Below the pieces are notes generated by a model. That model had not been told where the DNA came from. It saw nothing but the letters and a program-made list of their open reading frames with translations, and did no database searches. Made by a program: the position numbers and the translations under genes. DNA of 64,000 bases from an uncultured Vicinamibacterales bacterium. Lineage in GTDB: Bacteria > Acidobacteriota > Vicinamibacteria > Vicinamibacterales > UBA8438. Each line of letters opens with the position of its first letter. Within the stretch, counting starts at the first letter, position 1. Positions 21,471 to 58,715 of the stretch are shown here, in pieces. The stretch covers positions 2,938,001 to 3,002,000 of the forward strand of contig OY282382.1 in the NCBI GenBank assembly GCA_958295905.1. Direction: 5' to 3'.

Positions 21471-24400
21471 GTGAGCATCCGGACAATCTTCGACACGTGC
21501 CGTCCCCGCGGCGACGTCATGCGCGGGACGGTGGCCGAAGCGGACTTCGCCGCCGATCTCGCACAGGTGGTCACGGGCGGAGGAACCCCCGAGTACGTCG
21601 ATCCCGTCCGGTTCTTCGCGAACACCTATCCGACCCGGGGCCTGAAGAACCTGCTGGCCAACGTCTGCCGGCGCCTGAGCGGCGCCGGGGGCGGGGCGGC
21701 CGCCATCTTCCGCCTGGACACCTCGTACGGCGGCGGCAAGACGCACGGCCTGATCGCGCTGGCGCACGCGGCGCGGGGGTTGCCGCGGGTGGCCGGGGTG
21801 GACGAGTTCATCGATGCGTCGCTCCTGCCGAAAGGGCCTGTGCGCCTCGCCGCCTTCGACGGCGAGAACGCGGACCCGGCCAACGGACGGACGATGGGGG
21901 ACGGCGTCCGGGCGCACACGCCGTGGGGCGAGCTCGCCTATGCGCTCGCCGGGACGGCGGGCTACGACCGGGTGAGGAACAGCGACACCGGCGGCGTCGC
22001 GCCGGGCGCCGACACGCTGCGCGAGCTGTTCGGCGGCGAACCGACGCTCATCCTGCTCGACGAGCTCTCGGTGTACCTCCGGAAGGTGCAGCAGAACGGC
22101 GCGGCGCGCGATCAGTTGACGGCGTTCCTGACGTCGCTCTTCAAGGCGGTGGAGGGAGCCCCGCGCGCGGCCCTGGTCTACACGCTGGCCATCGGCAAGG
22201 AAGGCCGGGCGGTGGACGCGTACTCGGCGGAGAACCAGTTCATCGCCGACCGGATGGCCGAGGCCGAGAGCGTCTCGGCGCGCAAGGCGACGCTGCTCAA
22301 TCCGACCGAGGAGGACGAGACGCCCCAGGTGCTGCGCCGGCGCCTCTTCGAGTTCATCGACGAGGGCGCGGCGGGGGAAGCGGCCGCCGCCTATCAGGCG
22401 GTGTGGTCCGCGAAGCGCGGGGCGATCGCGGACGACGCCGCCCGGCCGGAGACGGCGGAGGCTTTCAAGGCGGGCTATCCGCTGCACCCGGACGTCCTGC
22501 AGACGCTGACGTCGAAGACCGCGACGCTCGACACGTTCCAGCGCGTGCGCGGCATGCTGCGGCTGCTGGCGCGGACCATCGCGCATCTCTGGGAGACCCG
22601 CCCGGCCGACGCGACGGCGATACACCTGCACCACGTCGATCCCGGCTGCGAGCCCGTCCGGCAGGAGATCGTCACCCGCCTGCAGCAGTCCGCCTACGTG
22701 CCGGCCATCGCCAACGACGTGGCCGGGTCGGGCGGCACCCGCGCCCTGGCCGAGGAGATCGACGCGAAGCACCACGGCGGCCTGCCGCCCTACGCCGCCT
22801 ACGTGGCGCGCACCGTCTTCATGCACACTCTCGCGTTCAACGAGCCGCTCAAGGGGCTGTCGCCCGAGCGGTTGCGCTATTCCATGCTGGGGCCGGCGTC
22901 CGACGTCAGCTTCATCGAGGAGGCGCGGAAGAAGTTCGTCGAGGAGTCCGCCTACCTCGACGACCGGCCCGGTGCCCCCATGCGCTTCCTCGCCGAGGCG
23001 AACCTGACCCAGATCATCCGCCGCGAGGAGAAGAACGTCGATTCCGGCGAGGCCCGCGCCGAGCTGAACGACCGCATCGGGCAGATCTTCCGGGGCGGCG
23101 CGTTCGACGCGGTCCGGTTCCCCGGCGGCCCCTTCGACGTGCCCGACGACGTGGGCAACGGGCGGCCGAAGCTCGTCGTGCTGGCCTACGACGCGGTGAC
23201 CATCGGGGCGGCGGAAGAGGTCCCCGAGCTGGCGCGGCGCATCTATCGGCGCAAGGGCTCCGACGGGTCGGCGCTGCGGCTCTTGCGCAACAACGTCGTG
23301 TTCGTGGTGGCCGACGACGCCCGCAAAGCCGAGATGCGCCGTCACGCGTCGCGCCGGCTCGCCCTGCGCGAGCTGAGGAAGCCCGAGCGGCTCGCCCACC
23401 TGGCCGAGCACCAGCGGGACAAGGTCTGCGAGCTGGAGGCGCGGTCGGAGCAGGAGCTCGCGCTCGCCATCCAGCAGTGCTACCGCCACATCTTCTATCC
23501 GTCGCGCCACCGCGTCGAGTCGGCGGACGTCGATCTGGCGCACTCGGCGATCGACATCCACTCCACGTCGGACCAGCCGGGGGCCGGCCAGCAGCACGTC
23601 GCGCGGGCGCTCGCCGACCTCAACAAGCTGCGCCACCCCGAGGACGAGCCCGACTCGCCGGCCTATGTGCGCGACCGGACGCCGCTCAAGAAGGGGGAGA
23701 TCACGACCGCGGCGCTGCGCAACGAGTTCCGGCGCGACCCCGGCCTGCCGATGCTCATCGGCGACGACGTGTTCATCCGCGGGGTGCGGCTGGGGGTCGA
23801 GCAGGGCGAGTACGTCTACCGCCGGGGCGATCTGCTGCTCGGCCCCGGCGACCCGTTCGCGGAGATCGTGATCGACGAGCAGTCCGTCGTCTTCACGATG
23901 GCGTTCGCCAGGAACCGGGGCCTCTGGCCGCGGCCGGCGCCGGATGCGCCGGAACCGGACCCGCCGGTGTCTCCGGGGCCAGACCCGCCGGTGGCCCCGG
24001 GACCGGACCCGCCGGTTCCACCCCCGCCGCCGCCCGATGCGTTGACGGCGGAGGGCGTGCTCAGGGATGCGTTGACGCAGATCTGGGAGCAGGCGCGCGG
24101 TCGCGGCATCGATCGCATCGGCGTGCTGACGATCCGGATGTTCGAGGCCGGCGACGCCTTTCGACTCCTTGGCAGCGTCGGCGGCGCGCAGCGGGCCGAC
24201 AAGGTCGTCACCTTCGCCGGCGGGTACGAGACCCGCGACGGCGGCTCGTTCCAGATTGAGTTCCGCGGGCCGGTGACGGACGCCCAGCCTGTGCGGGAGT
24301 TCCTCGAGCCGCAGTTGCGCGACGCGACCTCCCGGGACCTGGAAGCCGGCTTCGAACTGACCTTCGCCGACGGACTCTCGACGGCCGGCGGCGCGGCCGA

Positions 24401-24479
24401 GGCCTTCACCGAACGTCTGTCCCGGTTCGCGGGAGGGGCCGCCTACGTGTCGGCGACGGCGCACGCGGCCGAATCGTGA
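21471..24479 (+). CDS. DUF499 family P-loop ATPase, defence-associated
   Basis: 1,002-residue cytoplasmic ATPase. The Walker A region is DTSYGGGKTHGLIAL (Lys90) and the Walker B is LILLDELSVYL (about 193-203), as in DUF499/COG1483. A Pro-rich linker of repeated PDPPV units (about 823-857) joins a small C-terminal domain. DUF499 proteins are repeatedly found beside DUF1156 DNA methylases and PLD-helicases in predicted anti-phage loci; both partners are present here but 19-20 kb downstream. The start lies 111 bases after the esterase-PDZ gene. Its stop overlaps the next gene, so a co-translated operon of three genes is likely. The biochemical role within the system is unknown. Confidence 0.88.
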   Translation: MSIRTIFDTCRPRGDVMRGTVAEADFAADLAQVVTGGGTPEYVDPVRFFANTYPTRGLKNLLANVCRRLSGAGGGAAAIFRLDTSYGGGKTHGLIALAHAARGLPRVAGVDEFIDASLLPKGPVRLAAFDGENADPANGRTMGDGVRAHTPWGELAYALAGTAGYDRVRNSDTGGVAPGADTLRELFGGEPTLILLDELSVYLRKVQQNGAARDQLTAFLTSLFKAVEGAPRAALVYTLAIGKEGRAVDAYSAENQFIADRMAEAESVSARKATLLNPTEEDETPQVLRRRLFEFIDEGAAGEAAAAYQAVWSAKRGAIADDAARPETAEAFKAGYPLHPDVLQTLTSKTATLDTFQRVRGMLRLLARTIAHLWETRPADATAIHLHHVDPGCEPVRQEIVTRLQQSAYVPAIANDVAGSGGTRALAEEIDAKHHGGLPPYAAYVARTVFMHTLAFNEPLKGLSPERLRYSMLGPASDVSFIEEARKKFVEESAYLDDRPGAPMRFLAEANLTQIIRREEKNVDSGEARAELNDRIGQIFRGGAFDAVRFPGGPFDVPDDVGNGRPKLVVLAYDAVTIGAAEEVPELARRIYRRKGSDGSALRLLRNNVVFVVADDARKAEMRRHASRRLALRELRKPERLAHLAEHQRDKVCELEARSEQELALAIQQCYRHIFYPSRHRVESADVDLAHSAIDIHSTSDQPGAGQQHVARALADLNKLRHPEDEPDSPAYVRDRTPLKKGEITTAALRNEFRRDPGLPMLIGDDVFIRGVRLGVEQGEYVYRRGDLLLGPGDPFAEIVIDEQSVVFTMAFARNRGLWPRPAPDAPEPDPPVSPGPDPPVAPGPDPPVPPPPPPDALTAEGVLRDALTQIWEQARGRGIDRIGVLTIRMFEAGDAFRLLGSVGGAQRADKVVTFAGGYETRDGGSFQIEFRGPVTDAQPVREFLEPQLRDATSRDLEAGFELTFADGLSTAGGAAEAFTERLSRFAGGAAYVSATAHAAES

Positions 24480-33267: not shown

Positions 33268-33435
33268 ATGCCTGACACCCGCCTGATCGAACGCTGGCTG
33301 CCGATTGCGGCGCTCGGTGAGGAGAGCGTGCGGGAGCGGCGGTCCATGACCGCGTTGCCGCCCACGACTCGGTCCCGGATCTGGTCAGCTCAGCCGGTCA
33401 TCGGCGCTCGACTGATCCTACGGTGCCCAGCTTGA
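33268..33435 (+). pseudogene. 5' fragment of a second DUF1156 methylase gene
   Basis: ATG 33268 begins MPDTRLIERWLPIAALGEES, nearly the same as the N-terminus of the intact methylase at 43629 (MPDIRLIERWLPIAALAIES); the first 48 bases differ at only a few sites. Similarity fades over the next about 100 bases (RSRIWSAQPVIGARLIL against RLHVWWARRPLVASRAAIL) and then ends. It is a truncated paralogue, not a gene. Confidence 0.85.
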
Positions 33436-35743: not shown

Positions 35744-35765
35744 TCAATTTCACGCGATCGTTGAC

Positions 35766-35918
35766 ACCGAGCCGGTCGCGCGATGCCGCCGGGCGAATGG
35801 CGCGACTGTTCCGGTCGGCGGAGCGGGTGTTCTGAAGGGGGGCGGCGCCCGGCGGATTGCCGGGCTGTCGCCCCCGCGGGCCAACCGCGCGCTCCGCGCG
35901 CCGCGCGACCCCGCCGGC
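35766..35918 (+). pseudogene. Internal fragment of a second PLD-helicase gene
   Basis: About 150 bases closely match the intact helicase gene at about 49466-49626: ATGGCGCG-CTGTTCCGG, GGCGGAGCGGG-GTTC, GGCGGATTGCCGGG and TGCGCGACCCCGCC-type blocks in the same order, with small indels that break the frame. It is unlinked to any other helicase sequence here, so it is a relic of another copy. Confidence 0.8.
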
Positions 35919-39153: not shown

Positions 39154-39540
39154 GAAGTTGCGTTGCATCCGGCCGGGACCGTACTCGGCCCAAGAACGTG
39201 TCGTACAGCGGTAGAAATCGCCGAAATCTGGCCGATCCGAGCCGTTTCCGCGCCATGGCCGGCCAGTTCCGGCGCGCCGCGGGGTTTTGCCACGGGCTGA
39301 TAGCCGTTTCGACACCGCTTGACTCCGTCTTCTCGGGGGCGCAGACTGTCATGTGGGTGATTGGTGCCAAGAGAGCGAGCGCAAGATCGCTAGCCATGCC
39401 CTCCGTGACCGCTCAGGAAGACGTTTGATGGTACAACCGAGTGCGACTTCCTTCCGCGCCGAGGAGGATCCGCAAGCTGCTCCGAATCTTCGGTCTCAGC
39501 CTGCACGCCCCGGTCAACCGCTGTCCGATGACGAAAAGGC
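39154..39540. other. Unassigned stretch downstream of the intron array
   Basis: No gene is supported. It includes GTTCCGGCGCGCCGCGGGGTTTTGCC-like sequence (about 39270-39300) that recurs at about 53300-53335. A short open frame from ATG 39428 (MVQPSATSFRAEEDPQ...) runs toward the next fragment and may be its original 5' part. Confidence 0.4.
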
Positions 39541-43628: not shown

Positions 43629-46600
43629 GTGCCTGACATTCGCCTGATCGAACGCTGGCTGCCGATTGCGGCGCTCGCCATCGAGAGTACGCGCGAGCGG
43701 ACGCCGATGACGCCGTTTCCGGCGCCGAACCGTCTCCACGTCTGGTGGGCGCGCCGGCCGCTGGTGGCGTCGCGGGCGGCAATCCTGGCGTCGCTGCTGC
43801 CGGCGGACGCGGACCGGGAGAAGTTCCTGCACGTCATCGGGATTCACGGGGATCCGGTGGCGGTGCGCCGCAGGATTGACGCGGCCCGCCGTCGAGGAGA
43901 ACGCTTCGAGGGACAGGCGTACAGCTATCCACGAGCGTTCGGCCATGTTCCCGGACGGGACGACGAGCGGTGGTTGGAGAGCGCGCTGGGCGCGCGTGCC
44001 CTGGCGACCGTCGCGGTGCTCGATCCGACTGCCGGCGGGGGGAGCATTCCCTTCGAGGCGCTACGGCTCGGCGCCCGAGTCGTGGCCAACGACCTCAATC
44101 CCGTCTCCACGCTGATCATGCGTGCCACCGTTGCGTGGCCGTTCATGTACGGCGCGGCGCTCGAATCGGCATTCGACGAGCTGTCGGAGCGCTTCATGCG
44201 GACGAGAGAAGAACGTCTCGCACCGTACTTCCCACCGGAGCCTCAATCGAATGCCATTACCACCAACTACCTCTGGGCGCGCACGGTCACCTGCCCGTAC
44301 TGCGACGGTCTCGTGCCGCTGTCGCCGAACTGGCGGCTGGCGCCGGACGGAACCGGGGTCCGGCTGCTGCCCGACTGCGCCGGCGGTCCGGGAACCGCGG
44401 GCCGCGTCTGCGCGTTCGAGATCGTCGGGTCGGTGAAGGAGCAGTTTCCAGGTACGGTAGCCCGCGGCGACGGGCACTGCCCGTACGCCGACTGCGGCCG
44501 GGTGATCGACGGCGGCGAGATCAAGCGGCAGGCGCAGGGCGGCCGGATGGGTGAGCAGCTCTTCGCAGTTGTCTACAAGCGGCGGGTGGAGACGAGGACG
44601 AAGTCGGGCAAGCGCGGTCGGGACAAATGGGTGCGAGGATACCGCGCCCCACGGCCCGAGGATGACAACGGAACGGATATCCGCGACAGGCTCACGGAGA
44701 AGGTGCCGGAGTGGGGTGCCCTCGACATCGTGCCGAGTGAGTCTATCGGTGAGCTGTCCAATTACGATCGCGGTCACAAGCTGTACGGCATGTTTCGATG
44801 GACAGACCTGTTCTCGCCGCGCCAGCTTCTCTGCCACGGCGTCAGCGTGGAGGTGTTCCGGGAGATGCTCGACGCGGATCGGGCAGCGGGCCGGCTGGAC
44901 GATTTGCGCAAGGCGGCCTACGGCTACTTGGCGCTCGCGCTGGACACGATGTTGGACTACAACAACCGATGCAGCTATTGGGACGCCATCACCGGCAGGG
45001 GAGTACGGCACATTTTCGCCCGCCACGACTTCGCGTTCGTGTGGTCGTACGCTGAGATGGCTCCGCTCGTCGTGGGAGTCGGCTACGACTGGGCCATCGA
45101 CAAGACCGCCAAGTGCATCCGCGAGCTCGTCGCCCTCGTCCGTCCGGAAGCCGGCGGCGGCGCCGGGCTCCCCGGCCTGTTCGACCCGCCCGCCGCCGAC
45201 GCCGATGCGCGCGCCCCGTCCGCCGACGAACCGAGTCCCCGGCGGGGAGATTCCCCCTTCGCGGCCGACGGCGCGGATCGACGCGGACCGGGCCCTCGCG
45301 GGACGAATCCGGGGACGAGCGCCCCCTTCGCGGCCGCCGGCGCTGATGCCCGCGAACCGTCCGCCGACCGCACCCTCCTCACCGGGGCCGAAGGTCCCGC
45401 CGCCCGCGCCAACTCTCCCGCCGGCGCCCCGCCGCCGGTCACCATCACCTGCAAGTCGGGCGACGACCTCGACCATCTGGCCGACGGCTCGGTCGACGTG
45501 GTCGTCATGGACCCGCCCTACTACGACAACGTGATGTACGCCGAGCTGTCGGACTTCTTCTACGTCTGGCTCAAACGCACGGCCGGCCACGTGTTCCCCG
45601 AGCTCTTCCGCCGCAAACTGACCGACAAGGAGCGCGAGGCGGTCGCCAATCCGGCCCGCTTCGCGGGACAGCCGGGGGCCAGGGAGCTGGCCGGACGCGA
45701 CTACCGGCGGCGCATGGCGGCCATCTTCGCCGAGTGCCGGCGGGTCCTCAAGCCCGAGGGCATCATGACGCTGATGTTCACGCACAAGGCGACCGGTGCC
45801 TGGGACGCGCTGACCACGGGGCTTATCGAGGCCGGCTTCGTCATCACCGCGTCGTGGCCGGTGAACACCGAATCGGGAGGCGGACTGCACATCAAGAACA
45901 AAGCCGCGGCGAAGAGCACGGTCTTTCTCGCTTGCCGCCCCCGCCGGACCGGCCCGCCCCGCGGCGGGGAAGGCGCCGGCGCCGTGCGCGAGGCCCGCCC
46001 GGCCTACGGAGACGACGCGGCGGCGGTGTACTGGGAGGATGTGGAGCCCGGGGTGGCGCGCGCGGTCCGGGCGCGGGTCGAGGCGTTCCAGGACGCGGGG
46101 ATCACCGGGGTCGACCTGTACCTGGCGTCGTTCGGGCCGGCGCTCGAGGAGTTCTCGCGCCACTGGCCGTTGCGCCGGGGCGCGCCGCGCCCGAAGCCGG
46201 TGGAACGCCGGCGGCAGCGGGTGCTGTTCGAGGAGCCGTGGGACCCGTACGCGGTCACCCCCGAGGACGCGCTCGACGCGGCGCGGCGCGAGGTCAAGCG
46301 GTGGCGGCTGAGCCAACTGACGCACGTCAAAGCCGACGACGACCTCGATCCGCTGACGGCGTTCTTCGTGCTGGCGTGGGACGCCTTCCGGGCTCCCGTG
46401 TTCGCCTACGACGAAGCGCTGCGGCTGGCCCGCGCGGTCGGCGTCGACCTGGAAGAGGGTGTGGTCGGCCGGGTCGCGGGCAAGAAGGGGAGCGACCTGC
46501 ACATGTGGGACAGCGCGCGGCGGGCGGCGGGCGGGGCGCTCGGGCCGGCCGACGGGTCGCGGGGGATGATCGACGCGCTGCACCACGCGGCCCACGCGGC

Positions 46601-46856
46601 GCGCGGGCGGTCCGTCGCCGCCGCGGCGGAGCTGCTCGCCGCGGCCGGCCTGGACCGCGAGCCGCGCTTCTTCACGGCGCTCGAAGCGGTGCTGGAGATC
46701 CTGCCGCCGTCGACGGCGTTCACGGGCATCGCGCTCGACGGGGCGGTCGAGGCGTCCGGCAGCGACTTCGAGGCGCTCTACAACCTGTACCGCTTCGCCT
46801 ACGGCGACCGCATCGACGAGCCGGACCAGTTGCGCCTGTGGCGGGAGGAGAGCTGA
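43629..46856 (+). CDS. DUF1156 family adenine-specific DNA methyltransferase
   Basis: 1,075 residues. The N-terminal DUF1156 segment (MPDIRLIERWLPIAAL...RLHVWWARRPL) is diagnostic. The SAM motif DPTAGGGSIPFEAL starts at Asp132, two zinc-ribbon-like CPYC and CPYADC segments lie at about 222-285, and the catalytic motif is DPPYYDN (about 628). A low-complexity linker (about 515-600, with SPFAADGADRRG and APFAAAGADARE as imperfect repeats) separates the halves. GTG 43629 matches the N-terminus of the truncated copy at 33268. It precedes an Rpn gene and a PLD-helicase, forming with DUF499 a predicted modification-based defence system; it probably marks host DNA. Confidence 0.92.
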   Translation: MPDIRLIERWLPIAALAIESTRERTPMTPFPAPNRLHVWWARRPLVASRAAILASLLPADADREKFLHVIGIHGDPVAVRRRIDAARRRGERFEGQAYSYPRAFGHVPGRDDERWLESALGARALATVAVLDPTAGGGSIPFEALRLGARVVANDLNPVSTLIMRATVAWPFMYGAALESAFDELSERFMRTREERLAPYFPPEPQSNAITTNYLWARTVTCPYCDGLVPLSPNWRLAPDGTGVRLLPDCAGGPGTAGRVCAFEIVGSVKEQFPGTVARGDGHCPYADCGRVIDGGEIKRQAQGGRMGEQLFAVVYKRRVETRTKSGKRGRDKWVRGYRAPRPEDDNGTDIRDRLTEKVPEWGALDIVPSESIGELSNYDRGHKLYGMFRWTDLFSPRQLLCHGVSVEVFREMLDADRAAGRLDDLRKAAYGYLALALDTMLDYNNRCSYWDAITGRGVRHIFARHDFAFVWSYAEMAPLVVGVGYDWAIDKTAKCIRELVALVRPEAGGGAGLPGLFDPPAADADARAPSADEPSPRRGDSPFAADGADRRGPGPRGTNPGTSAPFAAAGADAREPSADRTLLTGAEGPAARANSPAGAPPPVTITCKSGDDLDHLADGSVDVVVMDPPYYDNVMYAELSDFFYVWLKRTAGHVFPELFRRKLTDKEREAVANPARFAGQPGARELAGRDYRRRMAAIFAECRRVLKPEGIMTLMFTHKATGAWDALTTGLIEAGFVITASWPVNTESGGGLHIKNKAAAKSTVFLACRPRRTGPPRGGEGAGAVREARPAYGDDAAAVYWEDVEPGVARAVRARVEAFQDAGITGVDLYLASFGPALEEFSRHWPLRRGAPRPKPVERRRQRVLFEEPWDPYAVTPEDALDAARREVKRWRLSQLTHVKADDDLDPLTAFFVLAWDAFRAPVFAYDEALRLARAVGVDLEEGVVGRVAGKKGSDLHMWDSARRAAGGALGPADGSRGMIDALHHAAHAARGRSVAAAAELLAAAGLDREPRFFTALEAVLEILPPSTAFTGIALDGAVEASGSDFEALYNLYRFAYGDRIDEPDQLRLWREES

Positions 46857-46904: not shown

Positions 46905-47939
46905 ATGGACGACGCAGCCTACAAACGGTTGTTCTCGCGGCCCTCCATGGTCCGGGACCTCCTGCGCGGCTTCGCCGCCCGCGGCTGGAGCGGCGGCCTC
47001 GACTTCGGCTCGCTGACGCCGCTGCCGGCCAGCTACGTCAGCCGCGATCTGCGGCAGCGCCACGGCGACTCGGTGTGGCGCGTCCGGTTCCACGACCGGC
47101 GGTGGCTCTATCTGGTGTTGCTGCTGGAGTTCCAGTCGGGAGTCGACCGGGCGATGGCCGTGCGCATGCTGACCTATACCGGTTTGCTGTACGAGAAGCT
47201 GATCGGAGAAGGGGTGCTGCGCGAGCACGGTGCGCTGCCGCCGGTGTTGCCGATCGTGATCTACAACGGCCGGCGGCCGTGGTCGGCGCCGGCGGACGTG
47301 GCCGGGCTGATTGCGGCGGGCGAGCCGGCGCTGGCGCGGTATCAGCCGTCGCAGCGCTATTTTCTGTTGGACGAAGGGCGCGCCGAGGGCGGCGGTCTGC
47401 CGCCGGGCAACCTGGTGTCGGCGCTGATCGCGTTGGAGACGAATCGCGATCGGGCGCGGTTGCCGGCTCTGCTCGAGGTGTTGATCGCTCTGCTGCGGGA
47501 GCAGGACGACGAGGAGTTGACGAATGCGTTCAGCGCGTGGGCGCGGCAGGTGCTGTTGCCGCGGCGGGTGCGCGCAGGGGTCCCGGCGTTGCTGCCGGGC
47601 CTGGAGGAGGTACGCGCGATGCTGTCGGAAACCGTGCAGGAGTGGACCGAACAGTGGGTCGAGCAGGGGATCGAGCGGGGGATCGAGCAGGGAATCGAGC
47701 GGGGAATCGAGCAGGGCCGCGCCGAGGAACGCGCGCTGTTGTGCCGCCTGGCGGCGCGCAAGTTCGATGCCGCCACCGCGCAGCGGCTGGCCGCGGTGCT
47801 GGCGGACGTCACCGATCCGGACCGCTTGGCGGAGGTCGGCGACCGGATCATCGAGTGTGAGACGGCGGCCGATCTGTTCGCCCGCATCCCCGGCACCGGC
47901 GGGGCCGCGACTGAGGAACAACGCGGGGAGGAGAGCTGA
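46905..47939 (+). CDS. Rpn-family PD-(D/E)XK nuclease (recombination-promoting, transposase-like)
   Basis: 344 residues. The N-terminal nuclease domain contains YLVLLLEFQSGVDRAMAVR (catalytic E-x-Q variant, about 72-90), and LPIVIYNGRRPW follows, as in Rpn/YhgA proteins. A C-terminal region has the repeat IERGIEQGIERGIEQG (about 249-264), usual for this family, then a helical end. Rpn proteins are DNA endonucleases that promote recombination, and some act in phage defence. It sits between the methylase and helicase genes, 48 bases after the first and 3 before the second, so it may have inserted into the operon or been recruited to it. Fragments of relatives lie at 51598-52045 and 53096-53220. 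Confidence 0.88.
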   Translation: MDDAAYKRLFSRPSMVRDLLRGFAARGWSGGLDFGSLTPLPASYVSRDLRQRHGDSVWRVRFHDRRWLYLVLLLEFQSGVDRAMAVRMLTYTGLLYEKLIGEGVLREHGALPPVLPIVIYNGRRPWSAPADVAGLIAAGEPALARYQPSQRYFLLDEGRAEGGGLPPGNLVSALIALETNRDRARLPALLEVLIALLREQDDEELTNAFSAWARQVLLPRRVRAGVPALLPGLEEVRAMLSETVQEWTEQWVEQGIERGIEQGIERGIEQGRAEERALLCRLAARKFDAATAQRLAAVLADVTDPDRLAEVGDRIIECETAADLFARIPGTGGAATEEQRGEES

Positions 47940-47942
47940 CGC

Positions 47943-50900
47943 ATGCTCGCCGGGCGGACGTGGCAGCGCAAGTACACGCCGGACGACGGCGACTTGGTGC
48001 GGCTGTTCTACGTCCCCGCGCTCGAAGACGCGGAGCGCTACGACCGCCTGACCGGCTACTTCAACGCCGGGGCGCTCGCGCTGGCCGCCCGCGGCATCGA
48101 GGGGTTGGTCCGCAACCGCGGCCACATGCGTCTCGTGGTCGGCTGCACCCTGCCGCCGGCCGAGATCGAAGCCATCGAACGGGGGGCGGCGCTGCGCGGG
48201 CGGGTCGAGCGCCATCTCGCCGAGCTGCCGCTGGCACCGCCGGACCAGGGCGCGGCCGACGCGTTGGAGCTGCTGGCGTGGATGGTGGCGCGCGGGCATC
48301 TCGACGTGAAGGTGGCGGTGCCGTGCGACGCCGAGCGCCGCCCGATTCCCGAGGACGGCATCTTCCACGAGAAGGCCGGCGTCGTGGCCGACCGGGCCGG
48401 CGACCGGCTCGCCTGGACCGGCAGCCTGAACGAGACCGCGGCCGGCTGGCGCCGCAACTGGGAAAGCATCCACGTCTACACGAGCTGGGGGGCGGAGCCG
48501 AAGCGCGTCGACGACGAGGAGGGCAATTTCGGACGCATCTGGGCCGACCGGGCGAAGCGGGTGATCGTGCTCGACACGCCCGAGGCGGTGCGCCGCGACC
48601 TGATGCGCTTCATGCCCGACAGCGACCAGCCGGCGCGCCTGCGCGCGCCCGGGCCGGAGCCGCCGCCGGGCGCGGTCGCCCCGGCGATCGAGTCGGATGA
48701 TCGGCCGGCCGACGACGTCCCGCCGGCCGTCGATCTGCGCCGCCGGGTCTGGGCCTTCATCGACCGCGCGCCGGCGCTGCCCGATGGGGGGGCGCGCGTC
48801 GGCGAGGCCACGGCCGCGGTCACGCCCTGGCCGCATCAGGTGCGGGCGTTCGAGCGGCTCTACGCGCACTGGCCGCCGCGGCTGCTCATCGCCGACGAGG
48901 TGGGGCTGGGCAAGACCATCCAGGCCGGCCTGCTGCTGCGGCAGGCGTGGCTGGCCGGCCGCGCGAAGCGGATCCTGATTCTGGCCCCGAAGGCGGTGCT
49001 CCGCCAGTGGCAGATCGAGCTGCGCGAGAAGTTCAACCTGAACTGGCCGATCTACGACGGGCGCCAGTTCGTCTGGTACGCCTCGCCGGCCCTGCGCGGG
49101 GGGGAACGGCGCCCCGTCACCCCCGATGCGTGGCACGCCGAGCCGGTCGTCATCGCGTCCAGCCACCTCATGCGGCGCCGTGACCGGGCGCAGGTCCTGC
49201 TGGAGGAAGCGCCGCCGTGGGACTTGGTGGTGCTCGACGAAGCCCATCACGCCCGGCGGCGTGCGGCGGGGTCGGCGCAGGAAGGGGGACCGAACGCGCT
49301 GTTGCGGCTCCTGCAGGGCCTGAAGGACCGCGCCGCGGGCCTGCTGCTGCTGACGGCGACGCCCATGCAGGTGCATCCCATCGAGGTGTGGGACCTGCTG
49401 AACCTGCTGGGCCTGCCGGCCGACTGGACCGGGCCGGCGTTTCTGCGGTTCTTCGAGGATGTCGCGCAGCCGAGCCCGTCGCCCGATGCCGTCGAGCGGA
49501 TGGCGCGGCTGTTCCGGGCGGCGGAGCGGGCGTTCGGCAGGGTGGCGGCGCCCGACGCCCGGCGGATTGCCGGGTTGTCGCCCCTGCGGGCCGCCCGCGT
49601 GCTCCGCGCGCTGCGCGACCCCGCCAGCATTCCCCGCCGGCAGCTCGAAACGCCGGATCGCCGCGCCGCCCTGGCCGTCATGCGGTCGCACACGCCGGTC
49701 CGCCACTTGGTCTCGCGCCACACCCGCGCGCTGCTGCGCCGCTATCACGAGAAGGGGCTGCTGACGACGCCGATCGCCGAACGCCGGGTCGAGGATCGCT
49801 TCGTCGAGATGACCGCCGGCGAGCGGGCGCTGTACGACGCGGTGGAGGACTACATCGCCACCACCTACAACCAGGCGGCGGCCGACGAGCGGACCGCGGT
49901 GGGGTTCGTCATGACCATCTACCGCCGCCGGCTCGCCAGCAGCTTCCAGGCCCTGCGCACGACGCTCGAACGGCACCTCGGCGCGGTGGCCGGGGCCGGC
50001 GGCGCCCCGGCCGGCGGCGGTGCGGGCCATTCGCCGCGCCGGCTCTCCGCCGGCCCCGCGAACGCCGGGGCCGGCGGGAACGCGGCGGCCGGTGCCGGCG
50101 ATCCGCCGTACCCGCCCGTCGCCGGCCTGGACGAGGACATATCTGACGACGAGACCTCGGACGAGGCGCGGGAGGTCGACGAGGTGGCGGTGCTCGAGCA
50201 GCGGGCGCTGGCCTTCGAGGAGGCCGCCGACATCGGGAGGCTGCTGGACGGCATCGCCCGCCTGCCTCCCGACGGCAAGGCGCAGGAACTCAAGGACGTG
50301 ATCCGCGAACTGCGCCGCGCCGGCTTCGCCCAGGCGATGGTGTTCACGCAGTACACCGACACGATGGATTTCCTGCGGGAGGCGCTCGGCGGCTGGGACG
50401 CGGCTTCCGGAGACGACCGGCCGGAGGGGCGCGGGTCGGCCGAGTCCGGGGCGCGGAATCCGGGTCCCGCGGGACCCGGCCGGCCTTCGCCGGAGCCGCC
50501 CGCGGACGGGTCGCCGCCCGCCGACCGGCCTGCGGGCGCCTTGCGGCTGATGTGCTTTTCCGGCCGCGGCGGCGAGGTCCGATCCGCCGGCGGCGCGTGG
50601 AGCGCTGTCGGCCGCGACGAGGTCAAGCGCCGCTTCCGGGAGGGCGGGGCCGATCTGCTGCTGTGCACCGACGCCGCCGCGGAAGGGCTGAACTTCCAGT
50701 TCTGCGGCGCCCTGATCAACTACGACATGCCGTGGAACCCGATGCGGGTCGAGCAGCGGATCGGCCGCATCGACCGTCTCGGGCAGGCGCATCCGGCGAT
50801 CCGCATCGTCAACCTGCACTACGCGGGAACCGTCGAGACCGACGTCTACCGCGCGCTGCGCACCCGCATCAACCTGTTCGAGTCGGTGGTCGGTCCTCTG

Positions 50901-51440
50901 CAGCCGATCCTGGCCCGGCTTCCGCACACCATCGCCGGCGCGGTCCTCGCGGGCGGCGGGCGGCGGGACCGGGGCGCCGGCGCGCCCGCGGCGGGGCCGG
51001 CGGGCGGGTCGGACGCCGGCGGGCGGGGTGACGTCGTCGAGGCCATCGAGCGTCAGGTCAGAGACGCCCGAACCGGCGGCTTCGACATCGACGCGACGGT
51101 GGATACGGAAGTCGCAATGCCGGCGCGGGCGCCGTCGCCGGTGGCCATGGAGGACCTCGACCGGGTGGTCTCCTCGCCCGACCTGATGCCGCCGGGAACC
51201 GACGTCCAACCGCTCGGCCGCCGCGAGTACGGCCTGCTGGCGCCGGGAATGCGCGAACGCCTGCGCGTGACCACCGACCCCGCCTACTACGAGGAGCATT
51301 CCGAGAGCGTCGAACTCTGGTCGCCGGGCAACCCGCTCTTCACGCCGCCGGAATTCACGGCGGAGGTGAAGGACGACGAGTTTCCGGCGGAGACGACGCT
51401 GAAGGAGTTGCTGGACGAATCAAGCACGCCAAGAGCATGA
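47943..51440 (+). CDS. Phospholipase D-like nuclease / SNF2-family helicase
   Basis: 1,165 residues. An N-terminal PLD domain has HEKAGVVAD (His142, Lys144) and GSLNET, a single HKD motif. The SNF2/superfamily 2 helicase core has Walker A DEVGLGKTIQAG (Lys324), DEAH (433-436), LLLTATPMQ and, after an insert of low complexity (about 680-720), AMVFTQYTDTMDFL, DAAAEGLNFQ and EQRIGRIDRLGQ. It probably translocates on and cuts unmodified invading DNA. The start is three bases after the Rpn stop, so it is co-translated. It completes the DUF499/DUF1156/helicase set. The last 212 bases recur, damaged, at 57519-57731. Confidence 0.92.
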   Translation: MLAGRTWQRKYTPDDGDLVRLFYVPALEDAERYDRLTGYFNAGALALAARGIEGLVRNRGHMRLVVGCTLPPAEIEAIERGAALRGRVERHLAELPLAPPDQGAADALELLAWMVARGHLDVKVAVPCDAERRPIPEDGIFHEKAGVVADRAGDRLAWTGSLNETAAGWRRNWESIHVYTSWGAEPKRVDDEEGNFGRIWADRAKRVIVLDTPEAVRRDLMRFMPDSDQPARLRAPGPEPPPGAVAPAIESDDRPADDVPPAVDLRRRVWAFIDRAPALPDGGARVGEATAAVTPWPHQVRAFERLYAHWPPRLLIADEVGLGKTIQAGLLLRQAWLAGRAKRILILAPKAVLRQWQIELREKFNLNWPIYDGRQFVWYASPALRGGERRPVTPDAWHAEPVVIASSHLMRRRDRAQVLLEEAPPWDLVVLDEAHHARRRAAGSAQEGGPNALLRLLQGLKDRAAGLLLLTATPMQVHPIEVWDLLNLLGLPADWTGPAFLRFFEDVAQPSPSPDAVERMARLFRAAERAFGRVAAPDARRIAGLSPLRAARVLRALRDPASIPRRQLETPDRRAALAVMRSHTPVRHLVSRHTRALLRRYHEKGLLTTPIAERRVEDRFVEMTAGERALYDAVEDYIATTYNQAAADERTAVGFVMTIYRRRLASSFQALRTTLERHLGAVAGAGGAPAGGGAGHSPRRLSAGPANAGAGGNAAAGAGDPPYPPVAGLDEDISDDETSDEAREVDEVAVLEQRALAFEEAADIGRLLDGIARLPPDGKAQELKDVIRELRRAGFAQAMVFTQYTDTMDFLREALGGWDAASGDDRPEGRGSAESGARNPGPAGPGRPSPEPPADGSPPADRPAGALRLMCFSGRGGEVRSAGGAWSAVGRDEVKRRFREGGADLLLCTDAAAEGLNFQFCGALINYDMPWNPMRVEQRIGRIDRLGQAHPAIRIVNLHYAGTVETDVYRALRTRINLFESVVGPLQPILARLPHTIAGAVLAGGGRRDRGAGAPAAGPAGGSDAGGRGDVVEAIERQVRDARTGGFDIDATVDTEVAMPARAPSPVAMEDLDRVVSSPDLMPPGTDVQPLGRREYGLLAPGMRERLRVTTDPAYYEEHSESVELWSPGNPLFTPPEFTAEVKDDEFPAETTLKELLDESSTPRA

Positions 51441-51471
51441 GCGCATCCTCGGCAGGGTTCTCGCCCCGCCA

Positions 51472-51585
51472 AGTGCTTCAGCCGACGTCGTTGCCTCGAT
51501 CATCCGCTCCGACTGCTACCGGCTGGAGCGACAGTTGCCGGGCGGGATTCGCACCCGCTGAAGAATGGCGCCTTTCACAGCGCAC
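51472..51585 (-). mobile_element. 5' fragment of the same group II intron, reversed
   Basis: About 114 bases match the 5' end of the introns at 36551 on (from GTGCGC at 51585 through GAAGCACTT at 51472) with a few changes. The rest of the intron is missing. It lies just past the helicase stop and adjoins the 3' end of an Rpn fragment. Confidence 0.85.
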
Positions 51586-51597
51586 CACCAGGAGCTG

Positions 51598-52045
51598 CTA
51601 CGCCGACCAGTCCGACAGACGACCGAACAGATCGGCCGCCGTGTCGCACTCAATGATCCAGTCGCCGACCTGCGCCAAGCGGTCCGGGTCCGCAACATCC
51701 TCAAGCGCCGCGGCCAACCGCTGCGCCGCAGCTTCGTCGAACTTCCGAGCAGTCAGACGGCGCAGCAACGCACGCTCCTCGGCCCGTCCCTGCTCGATAC
51801 CCTGCCCTCGGCCTTCTTCGCGGCCTTCTTCGCGGCCCTGCTCGACCCACTCGGCAGTCCACTCCTGAACGGTTTCGGCCAACATCGCCCGCACCTCCTC
51901 AAGCCGCGGCAGCGGCTCCGACACCGAGCTGCGGAACCGCCGCGGCAGCAGCACCTGCGTCACCCATTCGGTGAACGCCGCCGTCAGCTCCTCATCATCC
52001 TGCTTCTGCAGCAGTTCGATCAACGGCTCCAGCAACGCCGCCGGC
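51598..52045 (-). pseudogene. C-terminal part of an Rpn-family gene
   Basis: Encodes LLEPLIELLQKQDDEELTAAF through WVEQGREEGREEGRGQGIEQG to a stop at 51598. This matches the C-terminal half of the Rpn protein at 46905, including the Glu-Gly repeat. The nuclease domain is missing and the frame upstream of about 52045 is unrelated DNA. Confidence 0.8.
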
Positions 52046-52503
52046 GGCGGGCTTTGTGAAAGGCAACGCGGGGCAGTTCCGCACTGTCGGCGTGCAACGG
52101 GCCGGCCGTCCAAGGTACAAGGGAAGACGAACACGCCGCGCCGCGCCCAACGAAGCGCCATGCGCGGGTTCTCCGCGGCCCCGCTGCGCCCAAACGTGCT
52201 TCTGCGGTTCGATGAGCGGGTTCCGTCAACTTGGGGGCCACCGCCGGCGGCGGCGAGCCCCCGCCGCGCGGAATCCGTCGAGCAGCTAGCGCGCGGCCGG
52301 GGGGGGGCGGACTCCAGGGCGGCCCCCCGCGGGGCGTCAATCCGCGCCGCCGGCGGTGCGGCCGTCGTGCTCGAACGGCTCGGCTGATCACGGCACCGGG
52401 CGGGTTTGTGAGTCCACCACCACGGCGACAGGTCGTCCTCGGGCGCGTCGAGACGCGCTATGATGATTCTCGCGTTCACCGGGGCAACGGGAGAGGCAGC
52501 GAC
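52046..52503. other. GC-rich spacer before the Uma2 gene
   Basis: No gene is supported. It contains runs and inverted repeats (for example GCCCCCGCCGCGCGG and GGGGGGGCGG near 52255-52310). Open frames here lack family similarity and ribosome sites. Confidence 0.4.
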
Positions 52504-53061
52504 GTGGCCACCACGCAACCCGTCCTCAAGTTCACCTACGAGGACTACCGCACCGCACCGCCGGACAAGCGTTACGAGCTGCTGAACGGTGATCTGACCA
52601 TGGTTCCCGCCCCGAATCTGAGGCGCCAGAGAGTGCGGATGGCGCTGTCGACGCGGCTGCACATGTTCATCAAAGAGCGGGCGTTGGGCGAGCTGTTCAG
52701 CGCTCCCTGCGACGTGGTGCTGTCGGACAGCGACGTCGTGCAGCCGGACCTGCTGTTCGTCTCCCGAGAACGCGGGCATCTGCTGAGCGGCGGCGAGAAC
52801 GTGCGGGGTGCGCCGGATCTGGTGATCGAGATACGGTCTCCGGCGACCGCCGACCGGGACCGGGGCTACAAGCGTGAACTCTACGGCAGACACGGCGTGA
52901 CGGAGTACTGGCTGGTCGATCCAACAGCCGAAACCGTCTCGGTCCACCGCCAACGCGCCGGCGGGCCGGCGGTCATCCACACCTTCGGTCGGGAACAGAC
53001 GCTACGCTCGCCGCTACTCGCTCGTCTGGAACTCCACCTCGACGACGTCTTCTCGTCTTGA
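52504..53061 (+). CDS. Uma2-family (DUF820) PD-(D/E)XK endonuclease
   Basis: 185 residues with the standard Uma2 pattern: FTYEDYRTAPPDKRYELLNGDL (about 10-31), VVQPDLLFVSRER (catalytic Asp, about 79-91), APDLVIEIRSPATADRD (E-x-R variant of E-x-K, about 102-118), RYG-type RHGVTEYWLVDP and a C-terminal beta hairpin. Uma2 proteins are common in transferred DNA; their cellular role is not settled. GTG 52504 has GGAGAGG upstream; longer frames from 52231 are non-coding. It lies inside the repeat-flanked cassette ahead of the STAND gene. Confidence 0.88.
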   Translation: MATTQPVLKFTYEDYRTAPPDKRYELLNGDLTMVPAPNLRRQRVRMALSTRLHMFIKERALGELFSAPCDVVLSDSDVVQPDLLFVSRERGHLLSGGENVRGAPDLVIEIRSPATADRDRGYKRELYGRHGVTEYWLVDPTAETVSVHRQRAGGPAVIHTFGREQTLRSPLLARLELHLDDVFSS

Positions 53062-53095
53062 GGGCGCACCGGTCCGTGGCGCGAGAGGAACGGCG

Positions 53096-53220
53096 CCGCG
53101 GCGCTGATCGCGTTGGAGACGAATCGCGATCGGGCGCGGTTGCCGGCTCTGCTGGAGACGTTGATCGCTCTGCTGCGGGAGCAGGACGACGAGGAGTTGA
53201 CGAGTGCGTTTTCCGCGACC
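53096..53220 (+). pseudogene. Short internal fragment of an Rpn-family gene
   Basis: About 120 bases are almost identical to 47418-47530 in the intact Rpn gene (ALIALETNRDRARLPALLETLIALLREQDDEELTSAF). Both ends stop abruptly. The high identity implies a recent copy event. Confidence 0.85.
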
Positions 53221-53357
53221 GCCGGCCCCGCGCCGCCGGACGCCGCCGGGCCGCGGAGGCGGGGACCCTGCGGCGCCGTTACGGCAGTTCGATCGAGTTA
53301 GTTCCGGCGCGCCGCGGAGTTTTGCCGCGGGTTGTTGAGGGGACCCGGTGACCGCCG
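53221..53357. other. Spacer with a short dispersed repeat
   Basis: GTTCCGGCGCGCCGCGG and GTTTTGCC-CGGG blocks at about 53300-53335 match 39270-39300 downstream of the intron array. No gene. Confidence 0.5.
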
Positions 53358-56300
53358 ATGCGATCGACAGACATGGCTCTCTGGGACATCAAACGCGTTT
53401 GGCGGGTAGGCACCGGCGTCGATGAAGCTACGTACCCAACGGTCGAGTTGGAGCGCTTCCGTTGCCTCGTCCTGCTGGGCGCAGCGGGCGCCGGCAAGAC
53501 GACGGAAGCTCGACGACTGGCGGAGCGCGAATGCGGCTCCGGACGTTCCGTGCGCAGGTGCAGGTTGGCGGAGTACGCCGACACGTCGCAGGAACTTGCA
53601 GGGCACCTGAAGGAACTCGCCGAGGGAGCTGACGCGACGACCAGCTTTTATCTCGATGCGCTGGACGAGGCGATGATACCGGCGCGCGGACGCTGGCTTG
53701 CGATAAAGCGCTGGATTAAACGGGACCTCCAGGAAACCGGCGCGTCGATTCGCATCACCTGCCGAACCGCGGTATGGCCGGAAGGGCTCTCGGACGCGAT
53801 CCGCAGGTTCTGCGGGCGACAGTCGTTCGCCACGGCGTATCTTCAACCTCTCACCGAGGATGATGTTTCCGCGGCGGCGGGCTGGCTCGGCGTCGCCCCG
53901 GCCCCGTTTCTGGCGCGGATCGAGAAAGCGCGGGTTCAGAGCCTCGCACGGCACCCGTTGACGCTCCGTATGCTGCTGGGTTTGTCCGGGGACGGTGACG
54001 ACCTGCCGTCCACGCTGAAGGACCTGTTCGCCGAGGGCGTCCGGATGCTTGCGCGCGACCGGCAGGACAGGCGCGCGATCGGTACGCAGACTCGGTTTCC
54101 TCCAGACCGGATCGTGGAGATCGCCGAACGCACCGCCTGCTACACGATCCTGACCGGCCGGGAAACGGTGAATCTCGGAGACGACGTACCGTCCGGTCAA
54201 CTTGGTCTGCAAGACCTGTCCGGCTGCAGCGGGAAGGAATCCAAAGTAGACGAAGACGAGATCCGCGCAGTCGGTTCGTCAGGACTGTGCGATTCCGGGG
54301 CGCCGGCGACGTTTCGCTTCGCTCACCGGCAGTTCGCCGAGTATCTCGCCGGACGGCGGCTCGCGCGGCTGCCGACGCACCAGTCACGCGCGTTCCTCGC
54401 CGGTCCGGACGGGTGGCGTTCAGGCGCCGCCGGACCTCTGCGCGAGACCGCGGCGTTCGCCGCCCTGTTCAATACGGACTTGGCCGCGTGGCTGTCGAGC
54501 CGGGACCCCGAGGTGGTCGGGTTGTCCGACGTCGCCGACGGCGCCCTCCGACGACAAGCGACGCTCGGGCTGCTCGGACGCTTTCGCAGCCGCGCCGTGA
54601 CGGGCGGGGAACTGTACCGTGGCGGCATGAAACTGCGCGGCCTCCAGTACGAAGGTGCGGAAACGGACCTGCACCCGGTGCTCGAAGAAAGAGGCGACCG
54701 TTGCGGGGACGTCTTGGTGTACGTGATCTTCCTGATCAGGACTTGGCGCCTCTCGTCCATGAGCGACGCCCTGGCGGACTTGGTGCTCGATCCGACGGCG
54801 CCGCTGCATGCGAGGAGCCTCGCCGGACGCGCCCTCCACGAATGCGGCGCCGACGCCGCGCGCGAACGTCTGAAGCCCCTTGTCGCGGGTCTGCCCGAGG
54901 ACGACAGCGACGAATTGAAGGGAGTCGCGCTGCAATGCAATTGGCCTGATCGATTGTCGGCGCCGGAATTGTTCGATGCGCTGAGACCGAGACGCCGTCG
55001 GTCGTTCTTCGGGGCCTACGCGATTTTTCTGTACGGATTGGACCCGGACGAATTCCCTGCGGCCGGTGACGTCGCCGCGGGTCTCCGCTGGGCCAAGGGT
55101 CTCAAAGGTCTCACGTCGGAACCCAGCGATACGGACCCGCTCCATCGGCTCGGCATGCGGATCGCCCATGCCGCGTTGCGGAAACTGGATGATCCGGAAA
55201 TCGCCGTCGAGTTGGTGTCGTTGATGCGGCACTGGACGAAGTACCGGAATAGTCCGCTCGCGCCCTTGCTGAAAAACCCGCTGGAACGTCCAACGGACGA
55301 CGACTCTCCGTTGTACGCCGCTCGACGAGTTCGGCGACGGTTGATCGACCGGCTGGCGGAGTTCGTGGAGTCTACCCAAGAACTACGGACCCTGTCTTGG
55401 CACATCCCCGGACTGCAGTGCGAAGAGGACTTCCAATGGTTGCTCCAGCAAAGCCGCGACGATGAGCAAACGATGCAGGCGCGAGAAAATTACCTGTGGA
55501 TTGCGAATTTGCTTCCGTGGATGGACCGGCTGAAGGACGTCGAGGCATGGCTTCGGGTTTGCGACATCGATCCCGTGCGAAAAGTTCTCGGAAATCAGAA
55601 ATTCGTCGATCTGGATTCCGAACAGGCGATACGGCTTCGCGAAGAATGGACAGTCATTCATGGCTACGGGCCAGGGGCAGAGACCAAGACCGAGACGTCA
55701 AAGCTCGATCCGCCGCCACGCGATAGAGTTCTCCAAGCCCTGGTTCGGTCGGAGACCGAGGATGTGCGCGGTTTCCCGAGACTGTGCAAGGAACTCACGT
55801 TGGAGCCGATGAGCACCCATTATGGATTCGGACGTTTCCTGAAGGACACGCCGGGGTGGCGGGATGCCGATGCGGAGACGCGGATTCGAATCGTCAAGGT
55901 CGCGAAGCGCTACCTGTCGGTGGAAGCGATTGCCGAGGAATGCTTGTCACACCTGTCTCCGAATGGGATTCCAGTCGGTGGCCTTGACGCGATGTGGCTC
56001 GTTCTCGATTGCGATCCGGACTGGTTGAAATCGCGGCCCGAGTCCTGGTGGGCCGAATGGTCCCGGTACATTCTGCGGGGATCCATTCTGAATCTGCACG
56101 GCGAGCCCAACGATCCGAAACGAAAGCTCGTCACGCTGCTCAACAACGCTGCCGCCCCCAGCGTTCGCCGGGAAGTTCTGCGGCTGTTGTCGATCGACGG
56201 GACCGACGGCCAGTGCGTTCAGCTATCCCACGCGCTGCAGTTGCTGGCCGGCCAATCCAACCGGGATCTCGATGAGGCACTGTGCGAGGCGCTGCGTACC

Positions 56301-57500
56301 GGCGAGGTGCGGGAGCAGGATATTGTCAGCGTGGTCGAGTTCGCATTGACCCGCGCAAAAGACTTGGCGTTGCCGACGTGCCTCCGCATCCTTGAGAATG
56401 CCGCGGGTCACCCGGGACAATCGCCCGCGGAGCGCGTTGCGGTTGGTCTTCTCCGCAAATGCCCCGGCGCAAGCTGGACGGGGGTGAAGGCGTACCTGGT
56501 CTCCGATCGGGACAGAGCGCGCCGCGTTCTGGAGGCATTTGCGCACGACATGTTTCATGAACCCCTTGCAATGTCGACGCCGCAGTCGGGCGAACTGGCC
56601 GGCATGCTCCTGGATCTGTTCCCGCCGAAGAGTGATTCGGATGAAGGCGGCATGGTTGGGCCGGTTGACGCCGTGCACTTGTTCCGAGTGCAACTGATCG
56701 ACCATCTGGGCCGTTTGCATGACGAAGAGTCTCTCGACGTGTTCAGGCGACTCGAACAACAGTTTGGAGACCGCTATCCGTGGCTTGAGAATGCGAGAAT
56801 CCGTGCGGCGCGGAGCTATCGCCTGTTACGCTGGTCGCCGTTTCCGGTCGACGTCATCGCCGGGGTGCTGGATGCGGAGACGCGGAGATTGCTTCGGTCG
56901 GACGAAGACGTGGTCGACGGCATCGAATATGCACTCGAGCAATACGCGGACGGGTTGCGGCGGGACGGGACGGCCAGCGTCGAAGATCTATGGAACACCG
57001 CGAAAGACGCCGCGCCAAGCCCGAAACGGGAAGAGCACGTCTCCGGAAAGTTGTGCGGCGTCGTCAGATCGTATTTCCGGGACTACGCTGTCACCGCGGA
57101 TCGGGAAGTCGAGATCTACCGGCGCAGCGTTGGCCGCGCTGACGGCGGCGGGCCGGGGTCGGAGGTCGATATCCTGGTGCAGGTGCCTGGCCGCGGCACG
57201 ACGACCGGCGACGCGATCCGCGTGCCGATCGAGGTCAAGCTGTCGTTTAACGGTGAGGCGAAGACGGGCATGCAGCGTCAACTCGTTGACCGATACATGT
57301 CCGAACTTGGCGCGACGCACGGCGTCTATGTCGTCGTCTGGATGACCACGCCCGAGCCCGGGCACCTGGATCGCCGTCATCGCCCGAAGTGGAACGGCAT
57401 CAAGGCGGCGCGGCGGGCGTTGAACGAAGAGGCAAAACGGTTGTCGGAAGCAGGTCGGGCACAGGTTCGGGCCGTGGTCGTGGACGGCTCGTTGCGGTAA
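53358..57500 (+). CDS. STAND/NACHT-like NTPase with C-terminal PD-(D/E)XK nuclease
   Basis: 1,380 residues. The N-terminal P-loop NTPase has GAAGAGKTTEA (Lys47), Walker B FYLDALDEA (97-105), sensor-like IRITCRTAVWP and a winged-helix-like segment ending RFAHRQFAEYLAGR, as in NACHT proteins. From about 350 to 1200 it is a long helical-repeat region, the usual sensor of STAND proteins. The C-terminus carries a restriction-like nuclease: EVDIL (Asp1271), then PIEVKL (Glu1292-x-Lys1294) and a helix MQRQLVDRYM. NTPase, sensor and nuclease in one chain fits an abortive-infection receptor. ATG 53358 (or 53373) is the start. It is the main gene of the cassette at 51442-57518. Confidence 0.85.
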   Translation: MRSTDMALWDIKRVWRVGTGVDEATYPTVELERFRCLVLLGAAGAGKTTEARRLAERECGSGRSVRRCRLAEYADTSQELAGHLKELAEGADATTSFYLDALDEAMIPARGRWLAIKRWIKRDLQETGASIRITCRTAVWPEGLSDAIRRFCGRQSFATAYLQPLTEDDVSAAAGWLGVAPAPFLARIEKARVQSLARHPLTLRMLLGLSGDGDDLPSTLKDLFAEGVRMLARDRQDRRAIGTQTRFPPDRIVEIAERTACYTILTGRETVNLGDDVPSGQLGLQDLSGCSGKESKVDEDEIRAVGSSGLCDSGAPATFRFAHRQFAEYLAGRRLARLPTHQSRAFLAGPDGWRSGAAGPLRETAAFAALFNTDLAAWLSSRDPEVVGLSDVADGALRRQATLGLLGRFRSRAVTGGELYRGGMKLRGLQYEGAETDLHPVLEERGDRCGDVLVYVIFLIRTWRLSSMSDALADLVLDPTAPLHARSLAGRALHECGADAARERLKPLVAGLPEDDSDELKGVALQCNWPDRLSAPELFDALRPRRRRSFFGAYAIFLYGLDPDEFPAAGDVAAGLRWAKGLKGLTSEPSDTDPLHRLGMRIAHAALRKLDDPEIAVELVSLMRHWTKYRNSPLAPLLKNPLERPTDDDSPLYAARRVRRRLIDRLAEFVESTQELRTLSWHIPGLQCEEDFQWLLQQSRDDEQTMQARENYLWIANLLPWMDRLKDVEAWLRVCDIDPVRKVLGNQKFVDLDSEQAIRLREEWTVIHGYGPGAETKTETSKLDPPPRDRVLQALVRSETEDVRGFPRLCKELTLEPMSTHYGFGRFLKDTPGWRDADAETRIRIVKVAKRYLSVEAIAEECLSHLSPNGIPVGGLDAMWLVLDCDPDWLKSRPESWWAEWSRYILRGSILNLHGEPNDPKRKLVTLLNNAAAPSVRREVLRLLSIDGTDGQCVQLSHALQLLAGQSNRDLDEALCEALRTGEVREQDIVSVVEFALTRAKDLALPTCLRILENAAGHPGQSPAERVAVGLLRKCPGASWTGVKAYLVSDRDRARRVLEAFAHDMFHEPLAMSTPQSGELAGMLLDLFPPKSDSDEGGMVGPVDAVHLFRVQLIDHLGRLHDEESLDVFRRLEQQFGDRYPWLENARIRAARSYRLLRWSPFPVDVIAGVLDAETRRLLRSDEDVVDGIEYALEQYADGLRRDGTASVEDLWNTAKDAAPSPKREEHVSGKLCGVVRSYFRDYAVTADREVEIYRRSVGRADGGGPGSEVDILVQVPGRGTTTGDAIRVPIEVKLSFNGEAKTGMQRQLVDRYMSELGATHGVYVVVWMTTPEPGHLDRRHRPKWNGIKAARRALNEEAKRLSEAGRAQVRAVVVDGSLR

Positions 57501-57518
57501 TTGCCGCATGCCCGCGCG

Positions 57519-57731
57519 CGGCCTGCTGGCGCCGGGGATGAGCGAACGCCTGCGCGTCACTACCGACCCCGCCGACTACGAGGAGCATTCCGAGAGCGTC
57601 GAACTTCTGGTCGCCGGGCAGCCCGCTCTTCACGCGGCCGGAGTTCACGGCGGAGGTGAAGGACGACGAGTTCCCGGCCGAGGCGACGCTGAGGGAGCTG
57701 CTGGACGAGTTAAGCACGCCGAGAGCATGAG
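57519..57731 (+). pseudogene. Duplicated, frameshifted 3' end of the PLD-helicase gene
   Basis: About 213 bases match 51229-51440 closely, from GGCCTGCTGGCGCCGGG to CCGAGAGCATGAGCG, with one inserted T (near 57605) that breaks the frame. With the intact 3' end it forms a direct repeat around the STAND/Uma2 cassette. Confidence 0.9.
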
Positions 57732-57919
57732 CGGAGGAACGAGCCAAGAGACCGCACGGCACCCAGACGGCAGGAAGACGGAAACGACATGCCCGCAAGT
57801 TCGCGGCTGGTCGTCGTCGAACCGTTCGATCGGCGCGTAAAGCGTGCCGGCCAGGTCCGCGGCTCCGTTATCGGCGGCTGCGCAGACCACCGGCCTCGTC
57901 GGTCCGAGGTGGAGCCTCG
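57732..57919. other. Island right boundary
   Basis: A short open frame at 57789 (MPASSRLVVVEPFDRRVKRAG...) has GGAAAC upstream but no family, and runs into the end of the beta-barrel gene on the other strand. It may be the cut-off start of a gene that once followed the helicase. Confidence 0.35.
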
Positions 57920-58675: not shown

Positions 58676-58715
58676 GGGCGGTCTCTCGAATCGTCGCGGC
58701 TTTGGTTGAACGTGT

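Follow-up and report, generated by a model that had tools for sequence, protein, structure and literature searches.

The window considered here, a stretch of 64,000 nucleotides from an uncultured Vicinamibacterales bacterium, carries the 3' end of a helicase gene twice in the same orientation, with a STAND-nuclease gene and several gene fragments in between, which raises the question of whether these repeats are the edges of a mobile defence cassette, as the original prediction had it, or a trace of some other rearrangement.

The helicase belongs to a recognizable kind of antiviral locus. DUF499-centred BREX-related (BR) systems have a tripartite core of DUF499 ATPase, DUF1156 methyltransferase and SNF2 helicase (PMC12839542), and profile searches place all three genes inside one 30-kb stretch of the window, each on the forward strand, though not adjacent to each other. 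The DUF499 ATPase gene (21471..24479; PF04465, E=3e-33; NF042962, E=2e-59, below cut-off) lies 19 kb upstream, and the DUF1156 N6-methyltransferase gene (43629..46856; Pfam DUF1156; NF042963, E=3e-58) is followed by an intact gene for an SNF2/PLD-type helicase of 1165 aa (47943..51440; NCBIfam NF042964, E=6e-96, below cut-off; Pfam SNF2 and Helicase_C). The arrangement thus shares its core genes with the described BR systems but differs from them in that other defence genes stand between the ATPase gene and the other two, and in that an Rpn gene separates methyltransferase from helicase. Since all three proteins stay below the NCBI equivalog cut-offs (202 of 1200, 198 of 1000 and 323 of 1100 bits for NF042962, NF042963 and NF042964, respectively), which define the named equivalogs and not the broad BR kind, they are divergent BR members rather than the named equivalogs themselves. 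A SIR2-like defence-type gene of 855 aa (40998-43565) sits directly upstream of the methyltransferase gene. The intervening Rpn (Transposase_31) gene (46905..47939, forward strand; Pfam PF04754, E=3e-22) contains an in-frame internal ATG at 47619 behind a Shine-Dalgarno-like GAGGAGGT site and ahead of EQGIERGIEQGIERG repeats, as expected of an RpnS-like start. It is probably a recent arrival in the operon because methyltransferase and helicase genes abut in the relative G007 and enclose a PIN gene instead in G002.

Repeat finding and blastn pair positions 51230-51443 with 57519-57733 in direct orientation at 92.1% identity over 215 columns (E = 9e-84), with one 1-nt indel between copies of 214 and 215 nt whose starts lie 6289 nt apart; the originally described recurrence of about 212 bases at 51229-51440 and 57519-57731 is thereby confirmed. 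Copy 1 comprises the last ~211 nt of the intact helicase gene and 3 nt past its stop codon. Copy 2, also on the forward strand, begins 18 nt past the stop codon of the intact 1380-aa NACHT/nuclease gene and is a frameshifted helicase stub, as had been noted: read in the helicase frame, it runs GLLAPGMSERLRV...SVEL until an inserted T near 57605 breaks the frame, beyond which the original frame can be read to the stop codon. The longest identical tracts shared by the two copies span 31 and 29 bases, and a genome-wide search (6.3 Mb) returned a single third match, covering only the last ~35 bases of the repeat, at C1:79133-79157. We could rule out an assembly artefact, as the copies are 8% apart and the window lies inside a 6.1-Mb contig. 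The repeats have no evident function. In a tree of helicase tails, built from five short sequences and of low support, the branch of copy 2 is ~9 times longer than that of copy 1 (0.068 versus 0.008), as expected if only copy 1 stayed functional, and in the same comparison of five short sequences with low support each copy resembles the other (92%) more than it does the tails of the relatives G001, G002 and G007 (78-84%). At three sites, copy 2 has the bases of G002 and not those of copy 1, which would fit an allelic donor or homoplasy.

The sequences downstream of the two copies reveal which junction is the older one. At C1:79133, the end of the helicase tail and the flank of copy 2 are joined with 96% identity over 1053 bp, reaching into the next gene, and tail and copy-2 flank are likewise joined in the same-genus genome G001, where the blast alignment spans 57519-57763; therefore, the ancestral downstream flank is the sequence after copy 2, not the one after copy 1, which matches neither the C1:79133 nor the G001 flank. 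In G001, only ~30-60 nt of the copy-2 flank lie beside the helicase tail, with different sequence beyond, and a shuffle test of this flank by itself against G001 gave an equally good score in 1 of 1000 cases; G002 and G007 have other flanks. Because the copy-2 flank is ancestral, the helicase tail is now separated from its old neighbour by ~6.3 kb, and the ancestral order would have been helicase, copy-2 flank and an outer-membrane-type gene (57922-58675), with these ~6.3 kb gained in between. The C1:79133 locus itself represents a copy of helicase tail and flank at a second genomic place with its breakpoint inside the tail, and its gene end has the copy-1-like GAATCAAGC where copy 2 has GAGTTAAGC. 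Further downstream, positions 57694-58733 and 60381-60544 of the window recur joined at C1:79119-80328 (96% and 90%), so that 58734-60380 was either gained in the window or lost at C1. A search of viral contigs for the ancestral tail/flank junction gave no match.

All five elements that had been listed between the copies were found. Following copy 1 is the 5' fragment of a group II intron (51472..51600, reverse strand), a type of sequence with more than 20 copies in this genome; the truncated copy in question matches Rfam RF02003 at E = 1.2e-6, under the gathering score, and five genomic copies score above it. Elsewhere in the window, three tandem copies of ~868 bp (36551-39154; 99% identical) each contain the 5' end of this intron. 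The intron fragment meets a C-terminal Rpn fragment (51598..52049, reverse strand) that is 88-92% identical to other Rpn loci and has its Rpn-intron junction in common with C1:5489086. Then come an intact Uma2-family gene (52504..53061, forward strand; Pfam PF05685, E=3e-32) with genomic paralogs of up to 84% identity and a second, internal Rpn fragment of 119 bp (Rpn', 53099..53217, forward strand). This stub is a copy of 47419-47537 in the intact Rpn gene (94% overall, 96.4% over the first 112 bases) and matches any other Rpn in the genome at no more than 83%. Directly before the STAND gene lies a piece of 35-39 bp (53300..53338, no strand assigned) of a dispersed genomic repeat, which we rejected as part of a STAND promoter given its dispersed nature and its absence near STAND orthologs. 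Short fragments abound in the whole region, as do repeats of both the dispersed and the tandem type.

The reverse-strand Rpn fragment deserves a closer look, since rpn toxin-antitoxin loci are known as genes-within-genes and separate rpnS genes have been described as well (PMC10327210). Like the intact Rpn gene with its internal ATG behind GAGGAGGT, the fragment holds a complete RpnS-like ORF of 95 aa (51885-51598) that starts with an ATG behind the same GAGGAGGT site, and it is exactly this ORF that has been kept; different from the published cases, the ORF is known from sequence alone and had no Pfam match in a profile search. Because separate rpnS genes exist, a role as orphan antitoxin is plausible. 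Compared to two intact paralogs, the fragment shows a dN/dS of 0.3-0.4, although part of this figure reflects constraint on the paralogs themselves. The genome abounds in Rpn genes and fragments (14 matches to the subfamily); among them, a broken Rpn at C1:3638413 also retains an RpnS-like ORF, and another copy (C1:5488527-5489512) has an open toxin part and a frameshifted RpnS-like region.

The largest gene between the repeats (53358..57500, forward strand) is intact and encodes an EruA-like NACHT/STAND ATPase of 1380 aa with a C-terminal PD-(D/E)XK-like motif (E1269-x-D1271...IEVK). Its residues 23-722 match residues 12-687 of the EruA profile NF058535 (E = 4e-55) with the Walker motifs kept, but the C-terminal half with the nuclease-like motif falls outside the match, and the 187.5 bits obtained compare to an equivalog cut-off of 1000 bits. 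A Pfam profile search of the protein gave no domain match. At 52-53% identity it aligns with full-length orthologs that end at the same residue, and Walker A (GAAGAGKT), Walker B-like (YLDALDE) and C-terminal PD-(D/E)XK-type motifs are invariant among three full-length orthologs, which at the level of motifs makes it a STAND/NACHT nuclease in the broad sense (P-loop, Walker B and PD-(D/E)XK-type motif). The closest named records of these orthologs are MAGs of Vicinamibacteria and Acidobacteria. In G012, G001 and G007, the orthologs have upstream and downstream sequence in common that is missing from the window, and arrival together with the usual neighbours was therefore rejected in favor of the STAND gene having been brought in alone. 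In functional terms, two apparently intact defences are neighbours at this locus, one being the DUF499/DUF1156/helicase system and the other the EruA-like NACHT nuclease, to which an orphan Rpn antitoxin may be added.

Taken together, the repeat is best read as what remains of an operon that was duplicated and then overwritten within a rapidly changing defence island rather than as the edge of a mobile cassette. The order and orientation of Rpn', STAND gene and helicase tail repeat the arrangement that Rpn and helicase have within the intact block, and the origin of Rpn' in the same operon together with this collinearity leads us to consider it reasonably likely that the Rpn-helicase interval was duplicated, that its interior was overwritten by the STAND gene and that the stubs then decayed. 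The divergence of the two stubs is statistically similar (4/112 versus 16/214; Fisher p = 0.23). What we infer about the duplication, the sequence of steps and the route of recombination is as follows: A second interval from Rpn to the helicase end would have come to follow the first immediately, through either a tandem duplication or recombination with a sister allele, and in this second copy everything from the middle of Rpn up to the final ~212 nt of the helicase would have given way to the single-gene NACHT/nuclease system. The seam at 51444-53098 may then have been filled by pieces of a group II intron and of other defence genes, with copy 1 kept under selection as working helicase tail and copy 2, untranslated, left to decay. 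According to published work, rpn arrays form through direct tandem duplications whose ends vary and which leave no target-site duplications (PMC10327210), and by analogy a duplication with variable ends would agree with the one proposed here. Against it speak that the seam is not a clean tandem junction and that no further Rpn' sequence survives between the two stubs, where the best match to additional helicase sequence (53219-53263) does not exceed what chance gives in GC-rich sequence. In addition, the Rpn' stub could have come separately because Rpn genes and fragments are so common in this genome.

Remains of similar events are found in the window and among relatives. A 5'-end remnant of a DUF1156 methyltransferase gene (33269..33360, forward strand; 80% to 43630-43721) and an interior remnant of the helicase gene (35767..35918, forward strand; 84% to 49470-49628) enclose a TPR gene, and the stretch 33269-35918 represents the eroded remnant of another operon copy. 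In same-genus G001, the 5' two thirds of the helicase gene have been replaced by a 1372-aa HigA-type HTH gene that abuts the remaining 3' third, and an Avs4 homolog lies convergent just downstream of this helicase remnant; this second pile-up of defence genes at the same end of the helicase occupies L035:12884-16999 (HigA-HTH) and L035:6353-11620 (Avs4 homolog). Genome G017 has an internal helicase fragment only. We also considered mosaicism of the helicase in the window and claim no breakpoint, given that its dips in similarity to G002 lie in linker regions that vary in other genomes, too.

The reading closest to the original prediction would have a discrete defence cassette of RpnS-like ORF, Uma2 and STAND genes inserted after the helicase stop codon, bringing or duplicating the 3' end so that copy 1 restored the tail, copy 2 became the displaced original and re-excision would be possible. 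Its geometry fits: the block does interrupt the ancestral junction of tail and flank, and, as in integrative elements that target gene 3' ends, the intact copy of a direct repeat is joined to the gene and the decayed one lies beside the ancestral flank. Different from such elements, the block is patched together from pieces that have paralogs at other places in the genome, its terminal duplication of 215 bp is 8% diverged and exceeds the usual length of a core site, and no integrase is encoded between the copies. Whole-genome searches place the nearest Phage_integrase (PF00589) domains ~420 kb and ~700 kb away and found one weak resolvase (PF00239) match at ~400 kb, so that the block has neither its own nor a nearby site-specific recombinase, and we rejected an integrase-driven island with no tyrosine recombinase within ~400 kb and the lone resolvase match weak and distant. 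The cassette reading also gives no reason to expect a collinear Rpn' stub from the same operon, and insertion of a discrete unit with duplication of the target 3' end could thus not be upheld; overall, we regard it as improbable. Comparison with relatives turned up none with the block and none with both flanks minus the block, and hence no exact empty site; searches with the C-terminal part of the helicase likewise gave no relative with a separate, complete second helicase gene to which copy 2 could have belonged. The suggested excision keeps its structural basis in that direct orientation and the tracts of 31 and 29 identical bases, in principle, permit a deletion of 6289 bp, but it lacks a recombinase nearby. 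RecA-dependent excision is conceivable and, depending on the tract used, would leave a frameshifted or an intact helicase gene. Recombination between diverged repeats is inefficient, and such deletions should be rare because the repeats share no identical tracts longer than these at 92% overall identity.

We are about equally doubtful that the arrangement arose from independent accidents in which Rpn piece, helicase tail, intron piece and STAND gene were joined singly by illegitimate recombination or template switching, with coincidental collinearity. The abundance of short fragments and of dispersed and tandem repeats would suit such a history, as would the additional copy of tail and flank at C1:79133 with its breakpoint inside the tail, yet independence is unlikely for two stubs that derive from one operon, keep its order and orientation and have diverged to a similar degree, and since copy 2 is followed immediately by the ancestral flank, it did not arrive alone. 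A far more speculative idea, to which we give very little credence, is that the block works as a defence 'swap cassette', in which the helicase 3' end serves as a recurrent anchor for the exchange of alternative NACHT/STAND nuclease genes (EruA-like here; Avs4 and a HigA-fused gene in G001) via homology to the operon's ends, with the duplicated tail letting a population change between one and two defences and the orphan rpnS ORF guarding against leftover Rpn toxins.

If the operon was indeed duplicated and overwritten, the repeat marks an ordinary, if clearly visible, scar left by turnover in a defence island. It constitutes a well-resolved case of how a defence island is rebuilt, with one operon kept intact and its duplicated neighbours overwritten by other antiviral genes, leaving datable stubs behind. 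The RpnS-like ORF kept in a truncated Rpn offers a case in which the survival of an antitoxin beyond its toxin can be tested, and, if the two stubs stem from one event, collinear stubs could show which gene replaced which in defence islands.
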